Positions 17,344-27,890 of a stretch of DNA of 64,000 nucleotides are shown one piece after another. The notes below the pieces were generated by a model, which saw only the letters and a list, made by a program, of their open reading frames with translations, was not told the DNA's origin and did no database searches. Numbering within the stretch: position 1 is the stretch's first letter; every line of letters starts with the position of its first letter. Position numbers and translations under genes: made by a program. Source of the DNA: Bacteroidota bacterium (lineage in GTDB: Bacteria; Bacteroidota; Bacteroidia; UBA7662; CANHCV01); the NCBI GenBank assembly GCA_947501265.1, contig CANMVY010000009.1, positions 1 through 64,000 of the forward strand, given 5' to 3'.

Positions 17344-20292
17344 ATGATGAAACGCAGTTTATTAATCCTTTTGGGATTCAGCAGTATGGTCGCTTTTGCT
17401 CAAGAGAAAAAAGTGAAAAATGCCGATGAAATGGTACTAGAACAAACCAATCAGGAGGCGCTAAACAAGTTGCAAAGAGACTTTCACTCGCAATGGGAAA
17501 AAGATCAGAGCGCAGTTCAAAAATTCGCCAAAAAACACAGCATTCCCGTAGTTCAAGAATTGCCTAACGGCGGTGTTCTTCTATTACGTCGCATTGATGC
17601 AAACGGTCATCCGGTTTATGTTCAAACGGACAATGCTACGGCTGCGCGGACCATCAGTACCAATAAAGTGATTCCAACCGGCATTTCGGGATTGGATTTG
17701 GATGGATCTGGGGTTCGAATGGGCGAATGGGACGGGGGCGGAGTTCGCTCTACTCACCGTGAATTCGCACCTGCATCAGGTACCGGTTCTAGAACAACCC
17801 AAATCGATAACGTAACTACAACCAATCAACATGCTACCCACGTTGCAGGAACCATTCTCGCAAAAGGGGTTGACGTATCAGCCAAGGGAATGGCCATTAA
17901 TGGACGTCTTCGTTGCTTTGATTTCAATAATGATAACTCCGAAATGACTTCCGAAGCAAGTCAGGGCATGTTGCTCTCCAATCACAGTTACGGAATTCCC
18001 GGTGGTTGGTCCTTCAACGGATCTTGGTTTTGGTACGGTAATCCAACCATTTCTGCCGTTGAAGACTACAGTTTTGGTTTGTACGATGCCGAAGCACGCG
18101 ATTGGGACAATATTGCATTCAATGCTCCTTATTATTTGATGGTAAAATCGGCCGGTAACAACCGAAATGAATCTTGGAATGGAACCCACCAAGTTCAGGT
18201 TAATGGAAACTGGACTACTTCTACTGCTCGTAGAAATAGCGACGGAACGTACGATAACATGACCGGATCTGCGAATTCGAAAAATATTTTGGTGGTTGGT
18301 TCGGTTCAAGATTTAACCAATGGTTGGACAGCACCTTCCTTGGTTCGAATTAGCACCTTTAGCTCTACGGGCCCAACCGACGATGGTCGCATCAAGCCAG
18401 ATATTACGGCCAATGGAGATGACCTTCGTTCATGCAATAACACTTCAGATCAAGCTTATACCGTCATGGGAGGAACGTCCATGTCGGCCCCCAACGCAAC
18501 GGGATCAATAGCTTTGCTTCAACAACTTAGCCGTCGTAAATACGGACGTTGGATGCGAAGTGCTACAGCAAAAGCGGTGATCATCCATTCGGCCGACGAG
18601 GCTGGAACTTCCGATGGTCCTGATTATACCTTCGGTTGGGGATTGATGAATACTTACGAAGCCGCGAGAATCCTTGCCGATTCTTCCAATCGTAATCCCA
18701 TTTTAGAAAAAGCATTGATCAATAAAGATACCTTTAGCATTCGCGTGTATTCCAACGGGACTGAATCGTTGGAAGCTACCTTGGCTTGGACCGATGTTGC
18801 GGGAACCGCTTCCCCAGCAGCTCTCAATGCAAGGACCATCAAATTGGTGAATGACCTTGATCTTCGCATCATTGACTCTCTTGGAAATGCTACTTTACCT
18901 TATGTGTTGGATGTGAATAACCGAACTGCAGCTGCCACCCGAGGCGATAATATTCGCGATAACGTTGAAAAGGTTATTTTGAATACGCCCAATGCCGGAT
19001 GGTACACCATTCGAGTAACGCACAAGGGGAACTTGGCTCAAAATTTCCAACGTTTCTCGTTGGTGATGACCGGTGCAGCAAATCCTCCCGTTGCACGTGT
19101 TTCCGTTTCTAATAAAACCGTTTGTGTTGGAACCGTTGTTCGCTTTAACGATCTTTCCACCACTACCGCTCACAGTGTTTCATGGTCTTTCCCAGGTGGA
19201 ACACCGTCTACTTCAACCTTGGTAAACCCAACGGTGATCTATACCACTCCTGGTGTTTATCGGGTTTCTATGACCATTTCAGATTCATTGAATACCTACA
19301 CTTTTGTGGATTCGAATTTTATTACGGTGGTTAACTCTCCTCGCATTGATACCTTGCTAAAAACTCCAAATAATTGCAACGGAAACGGTTCAATTTTGGC
19401 ACAAGTTTCCGGTGGATATACGCCTTATCGTTACACTTGGGGACCTGGAATCTTTTCCGATTCCACGGCCATCATTGGATTGCGTGCCGGTTTGTACACG
19501 CTTTTGGTAACCGATTCTAACGGATGTTCAACAACCGCTAATGCGACTCTTGCAGATAATGGACCTATTGCGGTTGCATCAGCTACAACTTCCATCAATT
19601 GCTACGGTGGAAACAATGGTGTTGCCACGGCTACTGTAACTGGCGGAACGGCTCCGTTCGGTTATTCTTGGCAAACCAACCCGCCACAGTCTGGAGCTGT
19701 GCTTCCAAATCTGGCTGCAGGAACGTACCGAGTTCGAGTAACCGATGCTCAAGGTTGTACTTCCGATACCAGCATTACCCTTACTCAACCCGATTCTTTC
19801 ACGGTTATTCAATTCTCGAATCCCAATACCGGTGGTGGAAATGGTTCGGCTGGAGTATCTGTTTTTGGTGCTACTCCTCCCTACACGTACTTGTGGAATA
19901 CCACGCCTCCTCAAACGTCCAACGCTGCCTTCAATTTATTCGGTGGTCCGGTTCAAGTTACCGTAACCGATGCAAAGGGCTGTGTTAGAAACGTAAGCAT
20001 TCAGGTTTCTGGTGCTGGACTTGGAGCAGTAGATTACGCTCTCCCCGTTTTCCAAATGTTCCCATCTCCTTCCGAAGGATTGGTGATGATGTATTTCGAA
20101 AATCAATCCAACGAAAATGCGCAATTGAACATCACTTCCATCGATGGTAAAAAAGTTGCTGGATTTGATTTCGGAAATCAAAGCATTTTGTCAAGAGAAT
20201 TGAATCTTTCTCATTTGGCCAATGGGGTATATTTTGCAACATTGAGCACGAAAAAAGCAGAAAAGAAAGTTCGTTTCGTGATTCAACATTAA
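17344..20292 (+). CDS. Secreted subtilisin-like (S8) serine protease with PKD and SprB-type repeats and T9SS sorting domain
   Basis: The 982-residue protein has a signal peptide (KRSLLILLGFSSMVAFAQ) and a short pro-region, then an S8 catalytic domain with the full triad: D130 in GEWDGG, H163 in HATHVAG, and S379 in GGTSMSAP, plus N272 as the oxyanion residue (SAGNN). A beta-sandwich follows, then a PKD domain (about 580-665, VSWSFPGGTPSTS...YRVSMTISD). Next come three SprB-type repeats (GGYTPYRYTWGPG...GLYTLLVTDSNGC; GGTAPFGYSWQTNPPQS; FGATPPYTYLWNTTPPQTS). The end (MFPSPSEGLVMMYFENQ...ANGVYFATLSTKKAEKKVRFVI) is a T9SS type A sorting domain. It is predicted to be exported and bound to or released from the cell surface. 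A hairpin terminator lies 20 bases after the stop codon. Confidence 0.93.
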   Translation: MMKRSLLILLGFSSMVAFAQEKKVKNADEMVLEQTNQEALNKLQRDFHSQWEKDQSAVQKFAKKHSIPVVQELPNGGVLLLRRIDANGHPVYVQTDNATAARTISTNKVIPTGISGLDLDGSGVRMGEWDGGGVRSTHREFAPASGTGSRTTQIDNVTTTNQHATHVAGTILAKGVDVSAKGMAINGRLRCFDFNNDNSEMTSEASQGMLLSNHSYGIPGGWSFNGSWFWYGNPTISAVEDYSFGLYDAEARDWDNIAFNAPYYLMVKSAGNNRNESWNGTHQVQVNGNWTTSTARRNSDGTYDNMTGSANSKNILVVGSVQDLTNGWTAPSLVRISTFSSTGPTDDGRIKPDITANGDDLRSCNNTSDQAYTVMGGTSMSAPNATGSIALLQQLSRRKYGRWMRSATAKAVIIHSADEAGTSDGPDYTFGWGLMNTYEAARILADSSNRNPILEKALINKDTFSIRVYSNGTESLEATLAWTDVAGTASPAALNARTIKLVNDLDLRIIDSLGNATLPYVLDVNNRTAAATRGDNIRDNVEKVILNTPNAGWYTIRVTHKGNLAQNFQRFSLVMTGAANPPVARVSVSNKTVCVGTVVRFNDLSTTTAHSVSWSFPGGTPSTSTLVNPTVIYTTPGVYRVSMTISDSLNTYTFVDSNFITVVNSPRIDTLLKTPNNCNGNGSILAQVSGGYTPYRYTWGPGIFSDSTAIIGLRAGLYTLLVTDSNGCSTTANATLADNGPIAVASATTSINCYGGNNGVATATVTGGTAPFGYSWQTNPPQSGAVLPNLAAGTYRVRVTDAQGCTSDTSITLTQPDSFTVIQFSNPNTGGGNGSAGVSVFGATPPYTYLWNTTPPQTSNAAFNLFGGPVQVTVTDAKGCVRNVSIQVSGAGLGAVDYALPVFQMFPSPSEGLVMMYFENQSNENAQLNITSIDGKKVAGFDFGNQSILSRELNLSHLANGVYFATLSTKKAEKKVRFVIQH

Positions 20293-20304
20293 TTGAACTT
20301 CCCC

Positions 20305-21087
20305 ATGTTTCACATCCCGATTTTTCCCGTCATTGGAATCATCGGGATGTTTTTTTTGATGGGATGCCAATCAACATATCCAACCCTAACTTTTGCAGCT
20401 CACCTTTACGATGAAACCGATTCCATCAATGGTCCTGTCCCCCATTTTTTGCAAGCCGTAGAATACCAACAAGCTGATATTCTGCTTTGGGGTGGCGATG
20501 TGTCCGATTTTGGGGCACTAGCCCCTTCGGCCTGGGTTAGTTTAGAAAAAAAATGGACCGGAAAATCGTTCATCGCTTACGGGAATCACGATTTAGCAAC
20601 GCCAGAGGAATACAACCAAAAACGGATTGATTCGCTTCCTCCGTTTCAGTTTTATGAATTGTCTGACTCGGTGAAGTTGGTCGTTTTTCAAACGGTCGGA
20701 AAATCAAACTTCACCATCGATTCGGCTGTTTTTAATGCAGAAATGTCGGCCTTTCCCGTCCAAATTCTCATCATGCATCACCCATTGTTTTGGGATGGAC
20801 GAGATTCCTTTTGGAAACCTAATGCAGAAGCGGGTGAAGAAATGTATCAAATGAATCCAAATCAGAATTTCCGCTCAACTTGGCTCCCTTTGCTTCAACA
20901 AGAGGCCAAAAGCGGAAAGCAAATTTGGTGTTTGGCCGGCGATTTTGGGAAATTTCAAACCCAGCAACACCAAATTCAAAATGGAATACATTTTTTAGGA
21001 GTTGGCGGAAACGGTGAAAAAGTGGATTTTTTACTCCTGAAGCCAATGAAAAACAGGTATTCATATCAGATTATTTCTCACCCATGA
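20305..21087 (+). CDS. Metallophosphoesterase-like lipoprotein
   Basis: The ATG at 20305 gives a lipoprotein signal (IPIFPVIGIIGMFFLMGC with Cys at residue 21). The next ATG at 20347 would leave too short a signal. The mature part matches the calcineurin-like phosphoesterase motifs in order: an altered first motif (FAAHLYDE, where D-x-H would be expected), GGDVSD, GNHD, and later MHHP. A final GxH-type motif is weaker (AGDFGKFQ). It could be a phosphodiesterase or phosphatase anchored in the outer or inner membrane; the altered first motif leaves activity uncertain. Its stop overlaps the next start (ATGA, 21084-21087), which couples it to the CotH-like gene. Confidence 0.72.
   Translation: MFHIPIFPVIGIIGMFFLMGCQSTYPTLTFAAHLYDETDSINGPVPHFLQAVEYQQADILLWGGDVSDFGALAPSAWVSLEKKWTGKSFIAYGNHDLATPEEYNQKRIDSLPPFQFYELSDSVKLVVFQTVGKSNFTIDSAVFNAEMSAFPVQILIMHHPLFWDGRDSFWKPNAEAGEEMYQMNPNQNFRSTWLPLLQQEAKSGKQIWCLAGDFGKFQTQQHQIQNGIHFLGVGGNGEKVDFLLLKPMKNRYSYQIISHP
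20313..20357 (+). terminator. Terminator-like hairpin inside the start region of the phosphoesterase gene
   Basis: CATCCCGAT (20313-20321) pairs with ATCGGGATG (20341-20349) around a 19-base loop, followed directly by eight T residues. It is placed where a terminator for the upstream protease gene would be, yet it lies within the first 18 codons of the lipoprotein gene. Confidence 0.75.
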
Positions 21088-23822
21088 AACACCTTAAGCG
21101 ACTCGTTTTTGTAATCTTTCTTCTCGCAGGATTGGCTTTCTTGCTCACCATGGGCGATCGTTCCTCTCCAGAAGATGCGAGGTGGTACTGCGATGCAGAA
21201 TCTACCAGCATTCGGGAAGGAAGAACCTATTGGATAAGCGATGGCGATTTGTTTTCCAATGCCAAAACCCAATCGGATGACATCGCTTTCTCGGGAAAAT
21301 ATTCTTCTAAATGTCAACCCCTTCAGCCGTACGGAATGGCGTTTCATATTTCAGGAGTTTCACCCCAATCAACGTTTTATGTAGGCATTAGAAGATACGG
21401 AAACGATGAAAATGCATGTTTGCTTATTACCGGGAATCGTGGGTTTTACCAAGAAGTTTCGCTGGCCTCCTCCTCGCAGCGCGGATGGGATCTCTTGGAA
21501 GAATACTTCACCTTGCCGGAAGGAGCCGAGGACGATTCCCTCGTATTTTCAGCCTATTACAAAGGCAAATCGGGAGTCGCCTATTTCGATGATCTAACCG
21601 TTGAAAAAGAGTTCGATCAAACGCCTACATCGATCCCCAACGATTTTCCCCTCCTCAAAATTGATGTGGCTTCAGCCTCGTGGAATCAAATCCTTCAGCA
21701 ACGAAGCAAAGCCCTTCAAAAAGGAATTTTGTTGGAAGAAAATGAAAAACCGGTGGAAATGGAATTGTCGTTCAATCAACGAACCATCCCGGGAGAAATT
21801 CGATTGAAAGGCGATTGGATTGATCATCTTTCCGGAGAAAAATGGAGCTTTCGGGTGAAATGCAACGACTCGGTTGGCGTTCAAGGGCAAACCGAATTTT
21901 CTTTGATGCGTCCGCAAGCCCGAGATTTTTTAAGGGAATGGATGTTCAAAAAAGCACTTCAACAAGAAGGAATTTTAACGCCAACGTATCAGTTTGTTCA
22001 TCTTGTTCTCAAAGGCAAAGATTTGGGTTTGTACGTTTTGGAAGGATTGCCCAATTCTTACCTATTGGAGCATCAGGAACGAAGAGATGGGCCTGTTTTG
22101 AAATGGGATGAATCCGGATTCTGGGAGGCCCAAACTCGATCGTACGCCTCTTCTGGAGCGCCTCCTTTCAAAGGAAGATGGAATGTTCCTAAGTTGGTGG
22201 ATCGGAAAAAATGGATGGAAAATTCCGAGGGTGGAGTGGCGGTAAAAGCGCTCTTGGACTGGGAACAATTTGCCGAGGTTCGTCAAGTAGAGATCTGGGC
22301 CAAGTACTACGCTTTGGTGGAACTGTTTCAGGCGTACCACGGAATCATTTGGCACAACCAGCGTTTTTATTTGAATCCCGTTACTCACAATTTAGAGCCC
22401 ATCGCGATCGATGGATTTACCAATGAGGGCATCTATAAAATCGACGAGCGCCCCTTGATGGCTTGGGGACTTCAACCGAACTCGAATTGGGGGAAAGATG
22501 GCCTTCAGCCCTTTGGATTATTCCGAAACAAAGCGTTCGTAAAATCGTATTTCTTCTACTTGGGGAAATTCGCCCAATCGGATTACTTGAAAAGGCTGTG
22601 GTCGAAGCATGGGGCTGAAATGCAGCGAATCACCAGTGCCCTTCAAGGAATTCGAAATCACTACCACTATCCGATGGCGGCCAACATTCGTCGGGCGAAC
22701 GAAATTCAAAATTACCTAAAACCGTTGCCCGCCCAAGTGTGGTCGTACCGTGAAAATGGCAAGGTAGTGGTAGAAAATCGCTGGGGGTTGCCCTTGGAAA
22801 TTTTCGACGAGAAGAATCCCCAGCGCTTCACCTTTCTTCCTGCCTTTGATTCCTCCCGAGTCCCACCTCGCATCGTCCTTCCGTTGAATTCAAAGAATTT
22901 GCGTTATCGATCCATTGGCGGAACATCGTTTGAAAAAGTGGGGAAACCGCTCCCTGCTCCACAAATATCTACCGTAAAAAAAGTGTCGCTTTGCATTCCA
23001 AAGGGATTTAAAATGAAGGGAAATCGCATCACTGCCGTGTCCGGAAATTGGAGCAGCAACTGCATCATTCCTTCGGGTTATGTGTTGGAAATTCCCCGTG
23101 GCGTTCATCTTTCCATGCGTCCCGAACAGGTGTTTTGGTTGGAGGGACAACTGGAAGAAACCGGAAATGGCTCGGAGGAAATTCTAGTTTCAGGCGGAGC
23201 TGTTTATTTTCATCTGCAGAATAAAAAACTGAATTTCCATCATTGGCGATTTCGGGGTCAGAAGCAGTTTTCATGGGGGAATTTGCACGAAATGGGCGGG
23301 GTGAATGTGGTTGGAGCGGAGTTGAATTGGAGCGAAGTTATTTTTGAAGATATTCATGCGGAAGATGCCTTGAATTTGGTTCATTGCTCGGGGCAATTGG
23401 AGAAGGTCGTGGTGCAAAATGTTTCCGGCGACGGAATCGATTTCGATTTCTGCCAAATTTCGGTTTCTCGCTCGCAATTCATCAATACCGGTAACGATGG
23501 AATCGATTTTTCTGGCGGAAACGCCACCGTTTCCCATTGTTCGTTTTCCCAAAACGGCGATAAATCCATTTCCTGTGGGGAAGGAAATCGGTTTTTGGGA
23601 AAGAATCTTCAGATGAAAAATCAACGATTGGGAATCGGGGTGAAGGATCTGTCGGTGGCCAAGGTGGAAAACATGCAATGCGAAAAAGTGCAGTTGGCCG
23701 CCAAAGTTTTTCGGAAGAAATCGGATTGGGGAGGCGGGCAATTGGTGTTGAAAAATATTCACGGAACGTTCTCAAAACTTTACGAAAAAGACCAATTTAG
23801 TGCCGTTTCTTTGTTTCCATGA
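21084..23822 (+). CDS. CotH kinase-like protein with C-terminal parallel beta-helix
   Basis: The 912-residue protein has an N-terminal membrane anchor or signal (KRLVFVIFLLAGLAFLLTMG). A beta-sandwich region follows (about 30-175). The middle (about 190-470) resembles the CotH spore-coat kinase family: IRLKGDWIDHLSGEKWSFRVKC, a LREWMFKKALQQEGI helix, FVHLVLKGKDLGLYVLEGLP and a later LEPIAIDGF segment. After a linker, about 690-890 is a right-handed beta-helix with repeated GDGIDF and NDGIDFSGG turns. CotH members studied elsewhere are atypical protein kinases; kinase activity here is an inference. The gene overlaps its neighbours by 4 bases on each side (phosphoesterase and PorP/SprF). Confidence 0.75.
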   Translation: MKHLKRLVFVIFLLAGLAFLLTMGDRSSPEDARWYCDAESTSIREGRTYWISDGDLFSNAKTQSDDIAFSGKYSSKCQPLQPYGMAFHISGVSPQSTFYVGIRRYGNDENACLLITGNRGFYQEVSLASSSQRGWDLLEEYFTLPEGAEDDSLVFSAYYKGKSGVAYFDDLTVEKEFDQTPTSIPNDFPLLKIDVASASWNQILQQRSKALQKGILLEENEKPVEMELSFNQRTIPGEIRLKGDWIDHLSGEKWSFRVKCNDSVGVQGQTEFSLMRPQARDFLREWMFKKALQQEGILTPTYQFVHLVLKGKDLGLYVLEGLPNSYLLEHQERRDGPVLKWDESGFWEAQTRSYASSGAPPFKGRWNVPKLVDRKKWMENSEGGVAVKALLDWEQFAEVRQVEIWAKYYALVELFQAYHGIIWHNQRFYLNPVTHNLEPIAIDGFTNEGIYKIDERPLMAWGLQPNSNWGKDGLQPFGLFRNKAFVKSYFFYLGKFAQSDYLKRLWSKHGAEMQRITSALQGIRNHYHYPMAANIRRANEIQNYLKPLPAQVWSYRENGKVVVENRWGLPLEIFDEKNPQRFTFLPAFDSSRVPPRIVLPLNSKNLRYRSIGGTSFEKVGKPLPAPQISTVKKVSLCIPKGFKMKGNRITAVSGNWSSNCIIPSGYVLEIPRGVHLSMRPEQVFWLEGQLEETGNGSEEILVSGGAVYFHLQNKKLNFHHWRFRGQKQFSWGNLHEMGGVNVVGAELNWSEVIFEDIHAEDALNLVHCSGQLEKVVVQNVSGDGIDFDFCQISVSRSQFINTGNDGIDFSGGNATVSHCSFSQNGDKSISCGEGNRFLGKNLQMKNQRLGIGVKDLSVAKVENMQCEKVQLAAKVFRKKSDWGGGQLVLKNIHGTFSKLYEKDQFSAVSLFP

Positions 23823-24715
23823 AACGGATATTTTTGTTTTCCATTCTTCTCTTTTTAGGCGTAAAGAAAACCTTCGCTCAACTTCCAACCCAAGAAATTT
23901 ACTGGAATTCCCGCATGCCGTGGTTCACCATGATTCATTTTAATCCGGCGTATTCGGGCGTAAATCACGATAATCTTTTATTGGGTTACCGCAAGCAATT
24001 CGTCAATACACCCGGAATGCTTTCCTGGAGTCTGCAGGGCGCGTATGATGTGACCAAAAACAAGAGCAACGATGTTGGTGGAACCATTAAAATCAATCAG
24101 GAAGGGAATAATACCCAAGTTTTGTTGAGGGGAGTTTATGGGTATCGTTTGGATGCTTCCGATTTTTCGTTAGGGTTGGGCGTGGCTCCATCGGTTCAAC
24201 TTTTGAGCCTTTCGGCAGGAATCAATTCCGAAACCCGAAGCAGTTCCGATCTCGATGCCGGACTTTGGTTCCGAACCAAAAATGTTCATGTCGGCGCAGC
24301 CGTTCAAAACCTTTTTCAGCCCATCATCGCTTTTAAACGATTGGGCAATTATGCTACGGCACGTTCCATCAATGCCAATGTGGGTTGGACTTCCAGCATG
24401 TCGGGCGGTTGGAAAAATAAATCTGAGGTGTTTTACCGCATCTGCAATCGAAGTTATGGCATTCAATTCGCCACTCGATTTGAATACTTGGATAAATTTC
24501 AATTCGGATTGGCGTACCGCATGTTTCAATACAAGGGCATGTTAACCGTTATTCCCTACGGATTAAATCCGATTTCCATCATGACCGGTTTCGATCTTGG
24601 AAATCAAATCCAGTTGCGTGCTTCCTACGATTTCCCGGTGAGAACGGGAACGATGGGTGGAAATTTGGAGTTCGGATTGAATATCAAATTGAAGGATTAC
24701 AAGGATGGCTATTGA
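23819..24715 (+). CDS. PorP/SprF-family type IX secretion outer-membrane protein
   Basis: The 298-residue protein has a signal peptide (KRIFLFSILLFLGVKKTFAQ) and the family opening TMIHFNPAYSGVNHDNLLLGYRKQFVNTPG, followed by alternating hydrophobic strands that predict a beta-barrel (FSLGLGVAPSVQLL, FQFGLAYRMFQ, IQLRASYDFPV), ending in LEFGLNIKLK. PorP/SprF proteins serve particular T9SS cargo proteins, often encoded nearby, and help attach them at the surface. Here the gene directly follows the CotH-like/beta-helix gene with an ATGA overlap, so that protein or the subtilase upstream may be the client. It overlaps the next gene by 11 bases. Confidence 0.9.
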   Translation: MKRIFLFSILLFLGVKKTFAQLPTQEIYWNSRMPWFTMIHFNPAYSGVNHDNLLLGYRKQFVNTPGMLSWSLQGAYDVTKNKSNDVGGTIKINQEGNNTQVLLRGVYGYRLDASDFSLGLGVAPSVQLLSLSAGINSETRSSSDLDAGLWFRTKNVHVGAAVQNLFQPIIAFKRLGNYATARSINANVGWTSSMSGGWKNKSEVFYRICNRSYGIQFATRFEYLDKFQFGLAYRMFQYKGMLTVIPYGLNPISIMTGFDLGNQIQLRASYDFPVRTGTMGGNLEFGLNIKLKDYKDGY

Positions 24716-25769
24716 GACCGATGTCCTTGTTGTAGGTCATGGATTGGCGGGAGCGCATGCGGCGTACCAATTGCAGCAGGCGGGCAAATCGGTGGTGGTG
24801 ATTTCGGATGAACAATTCAAAGCTTCTTCGGTTGCGGCCGGACTTTGGCACCCGTTGCGGATACGCAGTGTGGAATGGTCGTGGTTGGCCGAAGAGGTTT
24901 TTCCTTTTGCTCACCAAACGTATTCGGCCATGGAGAAGGTTTGGGGAGCCCACTTTTTCCATCCCAAAACCATGGTTCACGACATTCCCGATTTGAATTT
25001 TCAAGGGGTTTGGAAGCGGCAGATGGAAAAATTGGGATCGGGGTTGGGGTTTCGTGAAGAGAATCCTTACCGGCCTTCCGACACGGGAATGGGTGAAATT
25101 CAGGAGGCCGGTTGGCTCGATATTCCCACGTTTCTTCAATGCTCCAAAAAAGCACTGGGTGGAAATTTTATCGAAGCAACTTTTGATTATCATCAGCTCA
25201 TCTTGAAGGAAGATGGAGTGGAATACCCCGGAATAAAAGCTCAGATGGTTCTTTTCTGTGAAGGGAATCGGATAGCGCTCAATCCTTGGTTTTCGGTCCT
25301 GCCCATGAATCCCGCGAAGGGGGAAGTGATGAAAGTGAAAATTGAAGGGATTTCTGAAAAAGAGGTCTACCATGCCGGATTTTTCCTCATCCCGTTGGGC
25401 GATCAAACGTTTCGCTTTGGTTCTAATTTTCGGTGGGATCGCCTTGATTGGAATCCTTCGGAAGAAGACGCCTCTATGTTGATCTTGAAGTTGGAGAAAA
25501 CCATCGGCAGAAAAGTGGAAGTGCTGGAACATCTTTCCGGCGTTCGACCTGCGAATCATTCCCGCCGACCGTTTGCCGGATTTCATCCTGAATACAACCA
25601 ATTGGCCATCTTAAATGCGTTTGGAAGCAAAGGAGTCATCCTTGCTCCATTTTTCGCGCATCAGTGGGTGCAACATTGGAAAAACGGAAAAGAAATGAAC
25701 GAGGAAGTGAATCCAAAAACCTGTAAAATACCGAAAATTAAAGAAAATAAAACGACCTTTGTGCCATGA
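24705..25769 (+). CDS. FAD-dependent oxidoreductase (DAO/glycine oxidase-like)
   Basis: The 354-residue protein begins with a Rossmann dinucleotide-binding motif VLVVGHGLAGAHAAYQL (GxGxxG with the second position altered to H), followed by the acidic end of the second strand (VVVISDE). The body and C-terminal GxRP segment (LSGVRPANHSRRPFAG...LNAFGSKGVILAPFFA) match the DAO family, which oxidises amino acids or amines with flavin. The substrate is unknown. The start codon lies inside the PorP/SprF gene (11-base overlap) and the stop overlaps surE (ATGA), so it is translationally coupled to both. Confidence 0.85.
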   Translation: MAIETDVLVVGHGLAGAHAAYQLQQAGKSVVVISDEQFKASSVAAGLWHPLRIRSVEWSWLAEEVFPFAHQTYSAMEKVWGAHFFHPKTMVHDIPDLNFQGVWKRQMEKLGSGLGFREENPYRPSDTGMGEIQEAGWLDIPTFLQCSKKALGGNFIEATFDYHQLILKEDGVEYPGIKAQMVLFCEGNRIALNPWFSVLPMNPAKGEVMKVKIEGISEKEVYHAGFFLIPLGDQTFRFGSNFRWDRLDWNPSEEDASMLILKLEKTIGRKVEVLEHLSGVRPANHSRRPFAGFHPEYNQLAILNAFGSKGVILAPFFAHQWVQHWKNGKEMNEEVNPKTCKIPKIKENKTTFVP

Positions 25770-26536
25770 ATACTCCCTTGATTTTAGTGACCAACGACGA
25801 TGGAATTACCGCTCCGGGCATCAAAGCCTTGATTGAAGCCGCTCAGTATTTTGGTGAAGTGGTGGTAGTAGCTCCCGATTCCGCTCAGTCGGGCATGGGG
25901 CATGCGATTACCATTTCCAAGCCCTTGAGGATGTTGGAAGTAAAAGGCTTGTTTCCAGGAGTGAAGGCGGCCTATCACACCACGGGTACCCCGGTTGATT
26001 GCGTGAAATTGGCCGTGGATCAGGTGATGCACCGAAAACCCGATTTGTTGATTTCTGGAATTAACCACGGAAGCAACAGCTCGGTGAATATTTTGTACAG
26101 CGGAACCATGTCGGCAGCGGTGGAAGGTGGATTGGAAGGAATTCCGTCCATTGGTTTTTCGTTGACCAACTTTTCATGGGAAGCCGATTTTTCGTTGGCC
26201 GTTGAGGTGGCGAAAAAAATGATTGAAAGCGTTTTGCTCCACCGTCCGCAACCTCCATTTGTGCTGAATGTCAATATTCCCCATTGCGCCAAATCGGAAT
26301 TTCAAGGAATAAAAATTTGTCGGCAGGCGCAAGCAAAATGGGTAGAAAAGTTCGATAAACGAGTGGATCCTCACGGAAAAACGTACTATTGGTTGACTGG
26401 TGAGTTTGTTAATAAGGATGATGGAGACGATACCGATGAGTGGGCATTGAAGCATAATTTTGCTTCGGTGGTTCCGGTTAATTTTGACCTAACCCACTAC
26501 GGATGGAAAGAGGCCATCAAAAATTGGAATTTATGA
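25766..26536 (+). CDS. surE: 5'-nucleotidase SurE
   Basis: The 256-residue protein has the SurE fold with the metal-binding start LVTNDDGITAPGIKAL, the loop APDSAQSGMGHAIT, and SGINHGSNSSVNILYSGTMSAAVEGG. These are the family's catalytic and metal-binding segments. SurE removes phosphate from nucleoside monophosphates and short polyphosphates and is a survival-related cytoplasmic enzyme. Length is normal. The gene overlaps both neighbours by 4 bases. Confidence 0.97.
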   Translation: MNTPLILVTNDDGITAPGIKALIEAAQYFGEVVVVAPDSAQSGMGHAITISKPLRMLEVKGLFPGVKAAYHTTGTPVDCVKLAVDQVMHRKPDLLISGINHGSNSSVNILYSGTMSAAVEGGLEGIPSIGFSLTNFSWEADFSLAVEVAKKMIESVLLHRPQPPFVLNVNIPHCAKSEFQGIKICRQAQAKWVEKFDKRVDPHGKTYYWLTGEFVNKDDGDDTDEWALKHNFASVVPVNFDLTHYGWKEAIKNWNL

Positions 26537-26823
26537 ATCGCGATCAATTGAAATTTGGAGTAGCCTTGGGCATTTTATTTCCCTCCATCTTATTTGTCCT
26601 AATTTTCTTAGCGATGAGCGGTGGATCTCAACTTCCCGACGCTTGGAATGCGATGGTGAATGAGAAGATTTTAATGAAGGTTATTGCCCTCTGTTGCGTC
26701 ATTAACTTGGTGTTATTTTACTACTTCTTGAATCGAAGTTTTTATGAAAGTACGAGAGGCGTAATTGTTGGAACCTTGGTTTATGGAATCATTGGAGCGA
26801 TTTTGATCTTTTCTGCGGGATGA
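26533..26823 (+). CDS. Small membrane protein, unknown function
   Basis: This 96-residue protein starts at the ATG that overlaps the surE stop (ATGA). It has three predicted membrane helices (about 9-27, 47-63 and 75-95) separated by short polar loops. I do not recognise the family. It lies between surE and lpxB with ATGA overlaps on both sides, so it is probably expressed with them; a link to envelope lipid metabolism is only suggested by position. Confidence 0.75.
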   Translation: MNRDQLKFGVALGILFPSILFVLIFLAMSGGSQLPDAWNAMVNEKILMKVIALCCVINLVLFYYFLNRSFYESTRGVIVGTLVYGIIGAILIFSAG

Positions 26824-27890
26824 AGTTTTTCGTGATGGCGGGGGAGGTGAGTGGCGATCAACACGCTGCTTCCTTGGTTCGCGCCATTCAAAAGCAAGCG
26901 CCCAGTTCGCAATTCGATTTTTGTGGTGGAGTGGCGCTTGAACGCGAAATACAAAAGCTTTCGCTGATTCCATTGGACCGATTGTCCATCATGGGAATTT
27001 TCAAAGTGATCCAACATTGGAAAACCGTTCGTAATAACTTTCGTGAAGTAAAACAGCACCTGCAATCGAACGCTTTCGATGCGCTAATCCTGGTTGATTA
27101 TCCGGGATTTAATCTGCGCATCGCGCAATGGGCGAAAAAACGAGGGATGAAGGTATTCTTTTACATTTCCCCCACCGTTTGGGCTTGGAAAGAAAGTCGA
27201 ATCAAGATCATTCAGTCTTCGGTGGATCAATTGTATTGCATTCTTCCGTTTGAGCAATCTTTTTACCGTGAAAGGGGAGTGGAGGTGAGCTATTTTGGAA
27301 ATCCAACCGCATCGGAATGGAGAACTGCGGAAATTTCGGAGCGGTTGAATCAAATTGCTTTGTTTCCTGGTAGCAGGAAGCAGGAAATTCAATCGTTAGC
27401 TCCTGCTTATCGGATGTTGATGGACCGATTCCCTTCCGAGAAATTCATCTTATCCTGCGCTCCAGGAATTGAAGAGAAATGGTTGTTGGAGCAATTTAAT
27501 CATACGGAATGTTCCATTTCTCATCATTCAAAAAGTTTATTGAAGGAAAGTAAGGCTGCTGTTTTGTGCAGTGGTACCGTTTCTTTAGAAGCCGGATTGG
27601 CCAACTGTCCGCAAGTTTTGGTGTACCGATTGGATCGTTTAAGTTGGTTTCTTGCTAAGTTATTGGTGAAATTAAAATACATCAGTTTGGTGAATTTGGT
27701 TCTCGGAAAAATGGAAGTGGAGGAGCTGGTTGGACCTTATTGGGGAGTGGATGAGTTATCGGAATCGTTGAATCGAACATTAGAAAAAAAATCGGGCATA
27801 GCAACCCGTGAAAAATTGTTAGCGGCCTTTGGAGATTTGGAACCTGAGCCGCAAATTGCAGCAGATATTTTGAAAAGAATAAACACATGA
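26820..27890 (+). CDS. lpxB: Lipid-A-disaccharide synthase
   Basis: The 356-residue protein has the LpxB signatures: GEVSGD near the N-terminus, FDFCGGVALE, LSIMGIFKVI, VDYPGFNLRIAQWAK, YISPTVWAWKESR and YFGNP, then a LFPGSRKQEI segment and a C-terminal CSGTVSLEAGLANCPQVLVYR nucleotide-sugar-binding region. It joins UDP-2,3-diacylglucosamine and lipid X to form the lipid A disaccharide, which implies a standard LPS outer membrane. The length is slightly below many proteobacterial homologues. The gene overlaps its neighbours by 4 bases. Confidence 0.95.
   Translation: MKFFVMAGEVSGDQHAASLVRAIQKQAPSSQFDFCGGVALEREIQKLSLIPLDRLSIMGIFKVIQHWKTVRNNFREVKQHLQSNAFDALILVDYPGFNLRIAQWAKKRGMKVFFYISPTVWAWKESRIKIIQSSVDQLYCILPFEQSFYRERGVEVSYFGNPTASEWRTAEISERLNQIALFPGSRKQEIQSLAPAYRMLMDRFPSEKFILSCAPGIEEKWLLEQFNHTECSISHHSKSLLKESKAAVLCSGTVSLEAGLANCPQVLVYRLDRLSWFLAKLLVKLKYISLVNLVLGKMEVEELVGPYWGVDELSESLNRTLEKKSGIATREKLLAAFGDLEPEPQIAADILKRINT

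Follow-up and report, generated by a model that had tools for sequence, protein, structure and literature searches.

Whether three overlapping envelope genes of a Bacteroidota bacterium form a surface phosphorylation module attached to the T9SS, as the initial annotation proposed, or serve some other function is the question raised by this locus. The genes lie on the forward strand of the window, the whole stretch of 64,000 nucleotides that was analysed (contig CANMVY010000009.1, assembly GCA_947501265.1), which belongs to a 2.33-Mb genome. They encode a 260-residue lipoprotein of calcineurin-like phosphoesterase fold from a divergent subfamily (hereafter MPE; 20305..21087; Pfam, alignment, AlphaFold and Foldseek), a 912-residue CotH-like/beta-helix protein (21084..23822; ORF listing, Pfam and AlphaFold), and a 298-residue outer-membrane protein of the PorP/SprF family (23819..24715; Pfam and NCBIfam), with 4-base overlaps at both junctions. 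The coordinates and overlaps given in the initial annotation were borne out, as were its family assignments, all of which score above the Pfam cut-offs.

Layout and maintenance of the locus

The MPE gene begins at an ATG at 20305, the ORF listing having a longer TTG start at 20293. An S8 subtilase gene (17344-20292), its product combining a PKD domain, SprB repeats and a T9SS tail, ends with a stop 12 bases upstream of this ATG. Downstream of the PorP gene the overlapping run extends into a DAO gene (11-base overlap) and then SurE (4-base overlap), the stretch 24705-27890 encoding a DAO-type oxidoreductase, SurE, a 106-aa membrane protein and an LpxB-like protein. The order S8-MPE-CotH-PorP-DAO is kept in both congeners, which are MAGs, one of them from a pond. 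Compared with these two congeners, dN/dS is 0.06-0.18 for the MPE, CotH-like and PorP genes, and 0.07-0.11 for the CotH domain; the three genes are therefore maintained under purifying selection. The dS of the S8 subtilase against one congener (G001) is 0.56, far higher than the 0.12-0.17 of the genes that follow, which suggests recombination between the subtilase and those genes. Promoter and terminator scans of the locus gave no more matches than shuffled sequences.

Architecture of the CotH-like/beta-helix protein

The 912-residue protein matches Pfam CotH (PF08757) over residues 239-350 with 29.1 bits (cut-off 23.8) and Pfam Beta_helix over residues 765-866 with 28.6 bits (cut-off 25.9). 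An AlphaFold model built from a 53-sequence alignment, with no ligand, has a mean pLDDT of 85.7 and a pTM of 0.66, and divides the chain into a predicted N-terminal membrane helix (residues 2-22; 21087..21149), a beta-sandwich resembling carbohydrate-binding modules (CBMs; residues 33-176; 21180..21611; Foldseek matches 8xmz, 1gui and 2zex), a kinase-fold domain (residues 185-545; 21636..22718), a linker, and a right-handed beta-helix (residues 641-912; 23004..23819) on which AlphaFold, Foldseek and the alignment agree. Searching the PDB with the single protein by phmmer returned nothing real. The top Foldseek matches are two Bacillus cereus CotH structures (5jd9, E=9.7e-10), and the family profile matches 5jd9 with E=1.6e-13 and 2.9e-6, so that the predicted model and the profile comparison confirm the CotH kinase fold for the region that the initial annotation called CotH-like. 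Lower in the Foldseek list are beta-helix polysaccharide-active enzymes (GH87, alginate lyase, RbmB) and CBMs; these are fold-level matches only, with E about 1e-4 to 1e-3, and some toxin binding-domain structures reach similar values. The beta-helix carries a ladder with exact 22-residue steps (D761, D783, D805 and N764, D786, D808), going on as pairs made up of Asp and Lys residues (D826/K827, K854/D855, K878/K879); each of these positions is kept by 91% or more of the family.

The site of the kinase fold

In Bacillus subtilis CotH, the substitutions D228Q and D251A inactivate the kinase (PMC7821199). The mapping of these two residues takes its numbering from that study and relies on profile alignments and on the 23 residues that separate the aspartates, a spacing that matches the FDG and PWD motifs of the crystal-structure sequence. 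In comparisons of the family profile with canonical CotH and with 5jd9, D228 aligns, with a one-residue loop insertion, to His419 (22338..22340), which is His in 53/53 aligned family members where canonical CotH has Asp in 17/17. The alignments stand at 20-30% identity, with a risk to the register around the catalytic loop, and a third one places Gly420 opposite D228; with this one-residue shift the position is mostly Gly, Ser or Ala in the family. Since either His419 or Gly420 then occupies the position of D228, the catalytic Asp is absent in either register, and the window's loop, H-G-I-I-W-H-N, has no Asp.

Also replaced is the Lys that all 17 aligned canonical CotH sequences share: here it is Trp254 (21843..21845), and 51 of 53 family members have Trp at this position. 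A conserved Glu, kept in 50 of the 53, is Gly321 in this genus (22044..22046; profile comparison and alignment); the Lys, part of a KKS motif, and this Glu presumably form the nucleotide-site pair. The metal-site Asp, in contrast, is retained: Asp443 (22410..22412), the equivalent of D251 in both profile comparison and alignment, is kept in all 53 members, and Asn425, the catalytic-loop Asn, and R427 are likewise invariant in the aligned family. As judged from these alignments, the protein belongs to the CotH fold superfamily but lacks a defining feature of CotH kinases, and with His419 in place of the catalytic Asp and Trp254 in place of the canonical Lys it does not appear to be an ordinary Ser/Thr protein kinase. 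The same genome encodes, on contig C1, a canonical CotH that has the Asp and a T9SS tail.

The phosphoesterase-fold lipoprotein

The MPE carries a lipobox-like sequence, FLMGC, and matches Pfam Metallophos (PF00149) with 25.1 bits (cut-off 21.5), a match found in 18/18 members of its subfamily; two further weak matches (L101/L113) were left out, being ordinary phosphoesterases. Its AlphaFold model (mean pLDDT 73.6, pTM 0.75) is of lower confidence than that of the CotH-like protein, and its best Foldseek match is Rv0805 (E=1.4e-7). The signature common to the 18 relatives runs F-x-G/A-H-x-Y, GGD, GNHD, H, GD. Like calcineurin-like MPEs such as Rv0805, GpdQ and the 5'-nucleotidases, the subfamily thus has the fold together with motifs II (GD), III (GNHD/E) and IV (His), which are invariant in the alignment, the unchanging residues being H33, D65 (of GGD), N94, H95 and D96 (of GNHD) and H159. 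It differs from them in that the motif I Asp (of DxH) and the motif V GHxH His residues are absent from the alignment: motif I reads A-A-H in the window protein, which keeps D213, and GD stands where motif V has GH. The site is therefore likely to be altered or to hold one metal.

PorP/SprF and the T9SS

The third protein matches Pfam PorP_SprF (PF11751) with 73.2 bits (cut-off 22.3) and is an outer-membrane-type precursor as in the rest of that family, although it scores 77.8 against the NCBIfam model TIGR03519, below the cut-off of 90.55, diverges from the three other PorP/SprF copies among the genome's four, and has an unusual genomic partner. When profiles of the four copies were used to look for a PorP/SprF gene conserved beside the CotH-like gene, the adjacency was found in this genus only. 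The T9SS is present in the genome insofar as SprA was found, in an inventory that covered SprA and PorP/SprF. Pfam gave no match to a T9SS C-terminal sorting domain in the window's CotH-like protein, and a scan for such domains found the tail in 0/85 CotH-beta-helix proteins. T9SS-tail proteins are nonetheless mildly enriched near CotH-beta-helix genes (9.3% vs 4.0%, p=0.014).

Conservation of the neighbourhood across Bacteroidota

A scan of GTDB genomes with the CotH-like family yielded 438 confirmed relatives, the best of them mainly from Saprospiraceae, Flavobacteriales and other Bacteroidota. Carriers of a CotH-beta-helix gene include Aureispira and Lewinella cohaerens, the latter with the MPE as well. 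Neighbours were counted for the best 79 of the 438, 77 of which are loci outside the genus, using profiles built from seeds and mostly checked with Pfam. Among these best-scoring loci DUF4956 and the VTC polyphosphate polymerase turn up most often, lying within 5 kb in 47/77 and 32/77 loci outside the genus, respectively; the MPE subfamily is found within that distance in 15/77 and at least one of the three in 55/77. Some distant loci have, in this order, DUF4956, VTC, canonical CotH, a Wzy_C polymerase/ligase, CotH-beta-helix and MPE. The window genome departs from most relatives, where one or both of VTC and DUF4956 adjoin the CotH-like gene; its sole VTC-DUF4956 pair is on another contig (C19 = L166:2179-3535), with no CotH adjoining. 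A small lipoprotein gene precedes that pair, and a gene for an outer-membrane-like protein follows it.

Across 100 related genomes examined separately, the MPE subfamily occurs in 20, a CotH-beta-helix relative in 25 and both in 16 (Fisher p about 5e-9, or about 5e-8 when the two congeners are removed), a CotH relative being present in 16/16 of the strong MPE genomes. The nearest MPE-CotH pair lies within 5 kb in 12 genomes, nine of them outside the genus and in seven further families, and the genes flanking the pair differ among these nine. The CotH-MPE pairing thus extends across several Bacteroidota families.

Relation to known systems

Compared with the CotH spore-coat kinase (PF08757; PDB 5jd9/5jda), the protein shares the kinase fold, the metal-site Asp and the catalytic-loop Asn, and most family members share the Glu as well, but the catalytic Asp is replaced by His, the Lys by Trp and, in this genus, the Glu by Gly, and the protein has a membrane anchor and additional CBM-like and beta-helix domains in an organism that does not form spores. 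CotH, a polyphosphate polymerase and DUF4956 form an accessory set of Gram-positive Pel polysaccharide clusters (PMC7112168, PMC12345266), and the Bacteroidota loci resemble this set in bringing together a CotH-like protein, a VTC/polyphosphate polymerase and DUF4956, which in Pel clusters are linked to an exopolysaccharide. The Bacteroidota CotH, however, has an altered site and is fused to a beta-helix, an MPE is added, the window genome holds VTC and DUF4956 elsewhere, and an unsystematic look showed no Pel genes next to the Bacteroidota loci. No description of the Bacteroidota form of the CotH-like protein was found in the open-licence literature.

A favoured reading and its rivals

To the architecture, the residue replacements, the conserved neighbourhood and the purifying selection, which the computation established, a reading of function can be added to which we give about an even chance: that the CotH-like protein acts on an envelope polymer through a kinase fold that is either rebuilt or ligand-binding, and that the MPE is its partner. 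The protein would be membrane-anchored and face the periplasm or the surface, where it would bind, and probably modify, an envelope polysaccharide or phosphopolymer held by the N-terminal carbohydrate-binding-like domain and the groove of the C-terminal beta-helix. An envelope polymer is proposed as the target because of the likeness to the Pel accessory genes together with the CBM-like and beta-helix domains. The kinase-fold domain would either perform a different phosphate or nucleotide chemistry around His419 or be a ligand-binding pseudokinase; the phosphoesterase-fold lipoprotein may act as a partner on the same substrate, and the PorP/SprF barrel would have joined the run in this genus, perhaps as an outer-membrane anchor. 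Several observations weigh against this reading, namely the placement of the genome's VTC-DUF4956 pair, next to no CotH, the absence of polysaccharide genes adjoining the locus in the ORF listing of the stretch, the fold-level nature of the beta-helix and CBM matches, and the invariant active-site constellation, which could also mean an active, unusual kinase. A very improbable extension of it has polyphosphate from VTC, perhaps moved through the membrane by DUF4956, feeding an extracytoplasmic, His-centred kinase-fold enzyme that phosphorylates the held polysaccharide, with the altered phosphoesterase editing the product; if true, phosphotransfer of this kind would be new among kinase folds.

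The main rival, less probable but to be taken seriously, is that both proteins are pure pseudoenzymes, the CotH-like protein a scaffold or adhesin with a ligand-binding kinase fold and the degenerate MPE a structural lipoprotein anchor. Both lack several catalytic residues, the Glu being lost too in this genus, CBM-like and beta-helix domains fit a binding role, and GAP50, an 'anchor' by its PDB title, is among the Foldseek matches of the MPE fold. The invariance of H419, N425, R427 and D443, and of H33, D65, N94, H95, D96 and H159 in the MPE, nevertheless goes beyond the needs of a mere scaffold, and the low dN/dS of the CotH domain likewise speaks against it. The locus may also be a simple adhesin locus, which would leave the invariant site unexplained. 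That surface proteins handled by the T9SS through PorP/SprF are phosphorylated by a working CotH-type kinase and dephosphorylated by a phosphatase, the module of the initial annotation, is improbable, even though the genes are coupled, the CotH fold and its metal Asp are kept, the CotH-MPE pair is conserved, SprA is present and a protease with a T9SS tail is encoded just upstream. The phosphate-adding enzyme is not supported, given the His in all 53 aligned members and the Trp in place of the canonical Lys, so that the sequence, as far as it goes, does not show a kinase-like active site; the phosphate-removing one is supported in part, its fold and motifs II-IV being kept but the Asp of motif I and the GHxH of motif V lost. 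Attachment to the T9SS is not supported either, given a PorP/SprF adjacency confined to one genus and the missing tails, the slight enrichment of cargo genes notwithstanding, and the conserved neighbourhood holds for CotH and MPE but not for PorP/SprF beyond the genus. Quite unlikely, too, is that the three genes merely share a run with housekeeping genes and have no common function; the overlaps do run on into DAO and SurE, with LpxB following, and PorP is genus-specific, but the MPE and CotH-like genes adjoin in the nine further genomes between different flanks.

The analysis defines a large CotH-related family, with 438 confirmed relatives from one genome scan. All its aligned members have His for the catalytic Asp; polymer-binding-like domains are fused to this kinase fold, and gene order ties the family to the synthesis of polyphosphate and to an altered phosphoesterase. 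A pipeline that annotates by PF08757 score would label these proteins kinases. Activity of the His site would bear on what kinase folds do outside the cell and on the purpose of the widespread CotH-VTC-DUF4956 gene set.

Variant loci

Three operons (L040, L041 and L042) with DUF4956, VTC, Wzy_C and MPE genes each combine a canonical CotH with an altered-site, beta-helix-fused one; in these the equivalent of D443 is Glu, and the operon of L042 adds an MBOAT gene and a weak DltD-like match. Two genomes of one family (G050 and G090; L039 and other contigs) have 7-9 CotH-like matches each, many of them in reading frames not long enough to include a beta-helix. In four loci (L089:8412-9977, L106, L137 and L140) a gene of about 490 aa on the opposite strand lies between the MPE and CotH-like genes, and its product has a T9SS tail in L089.
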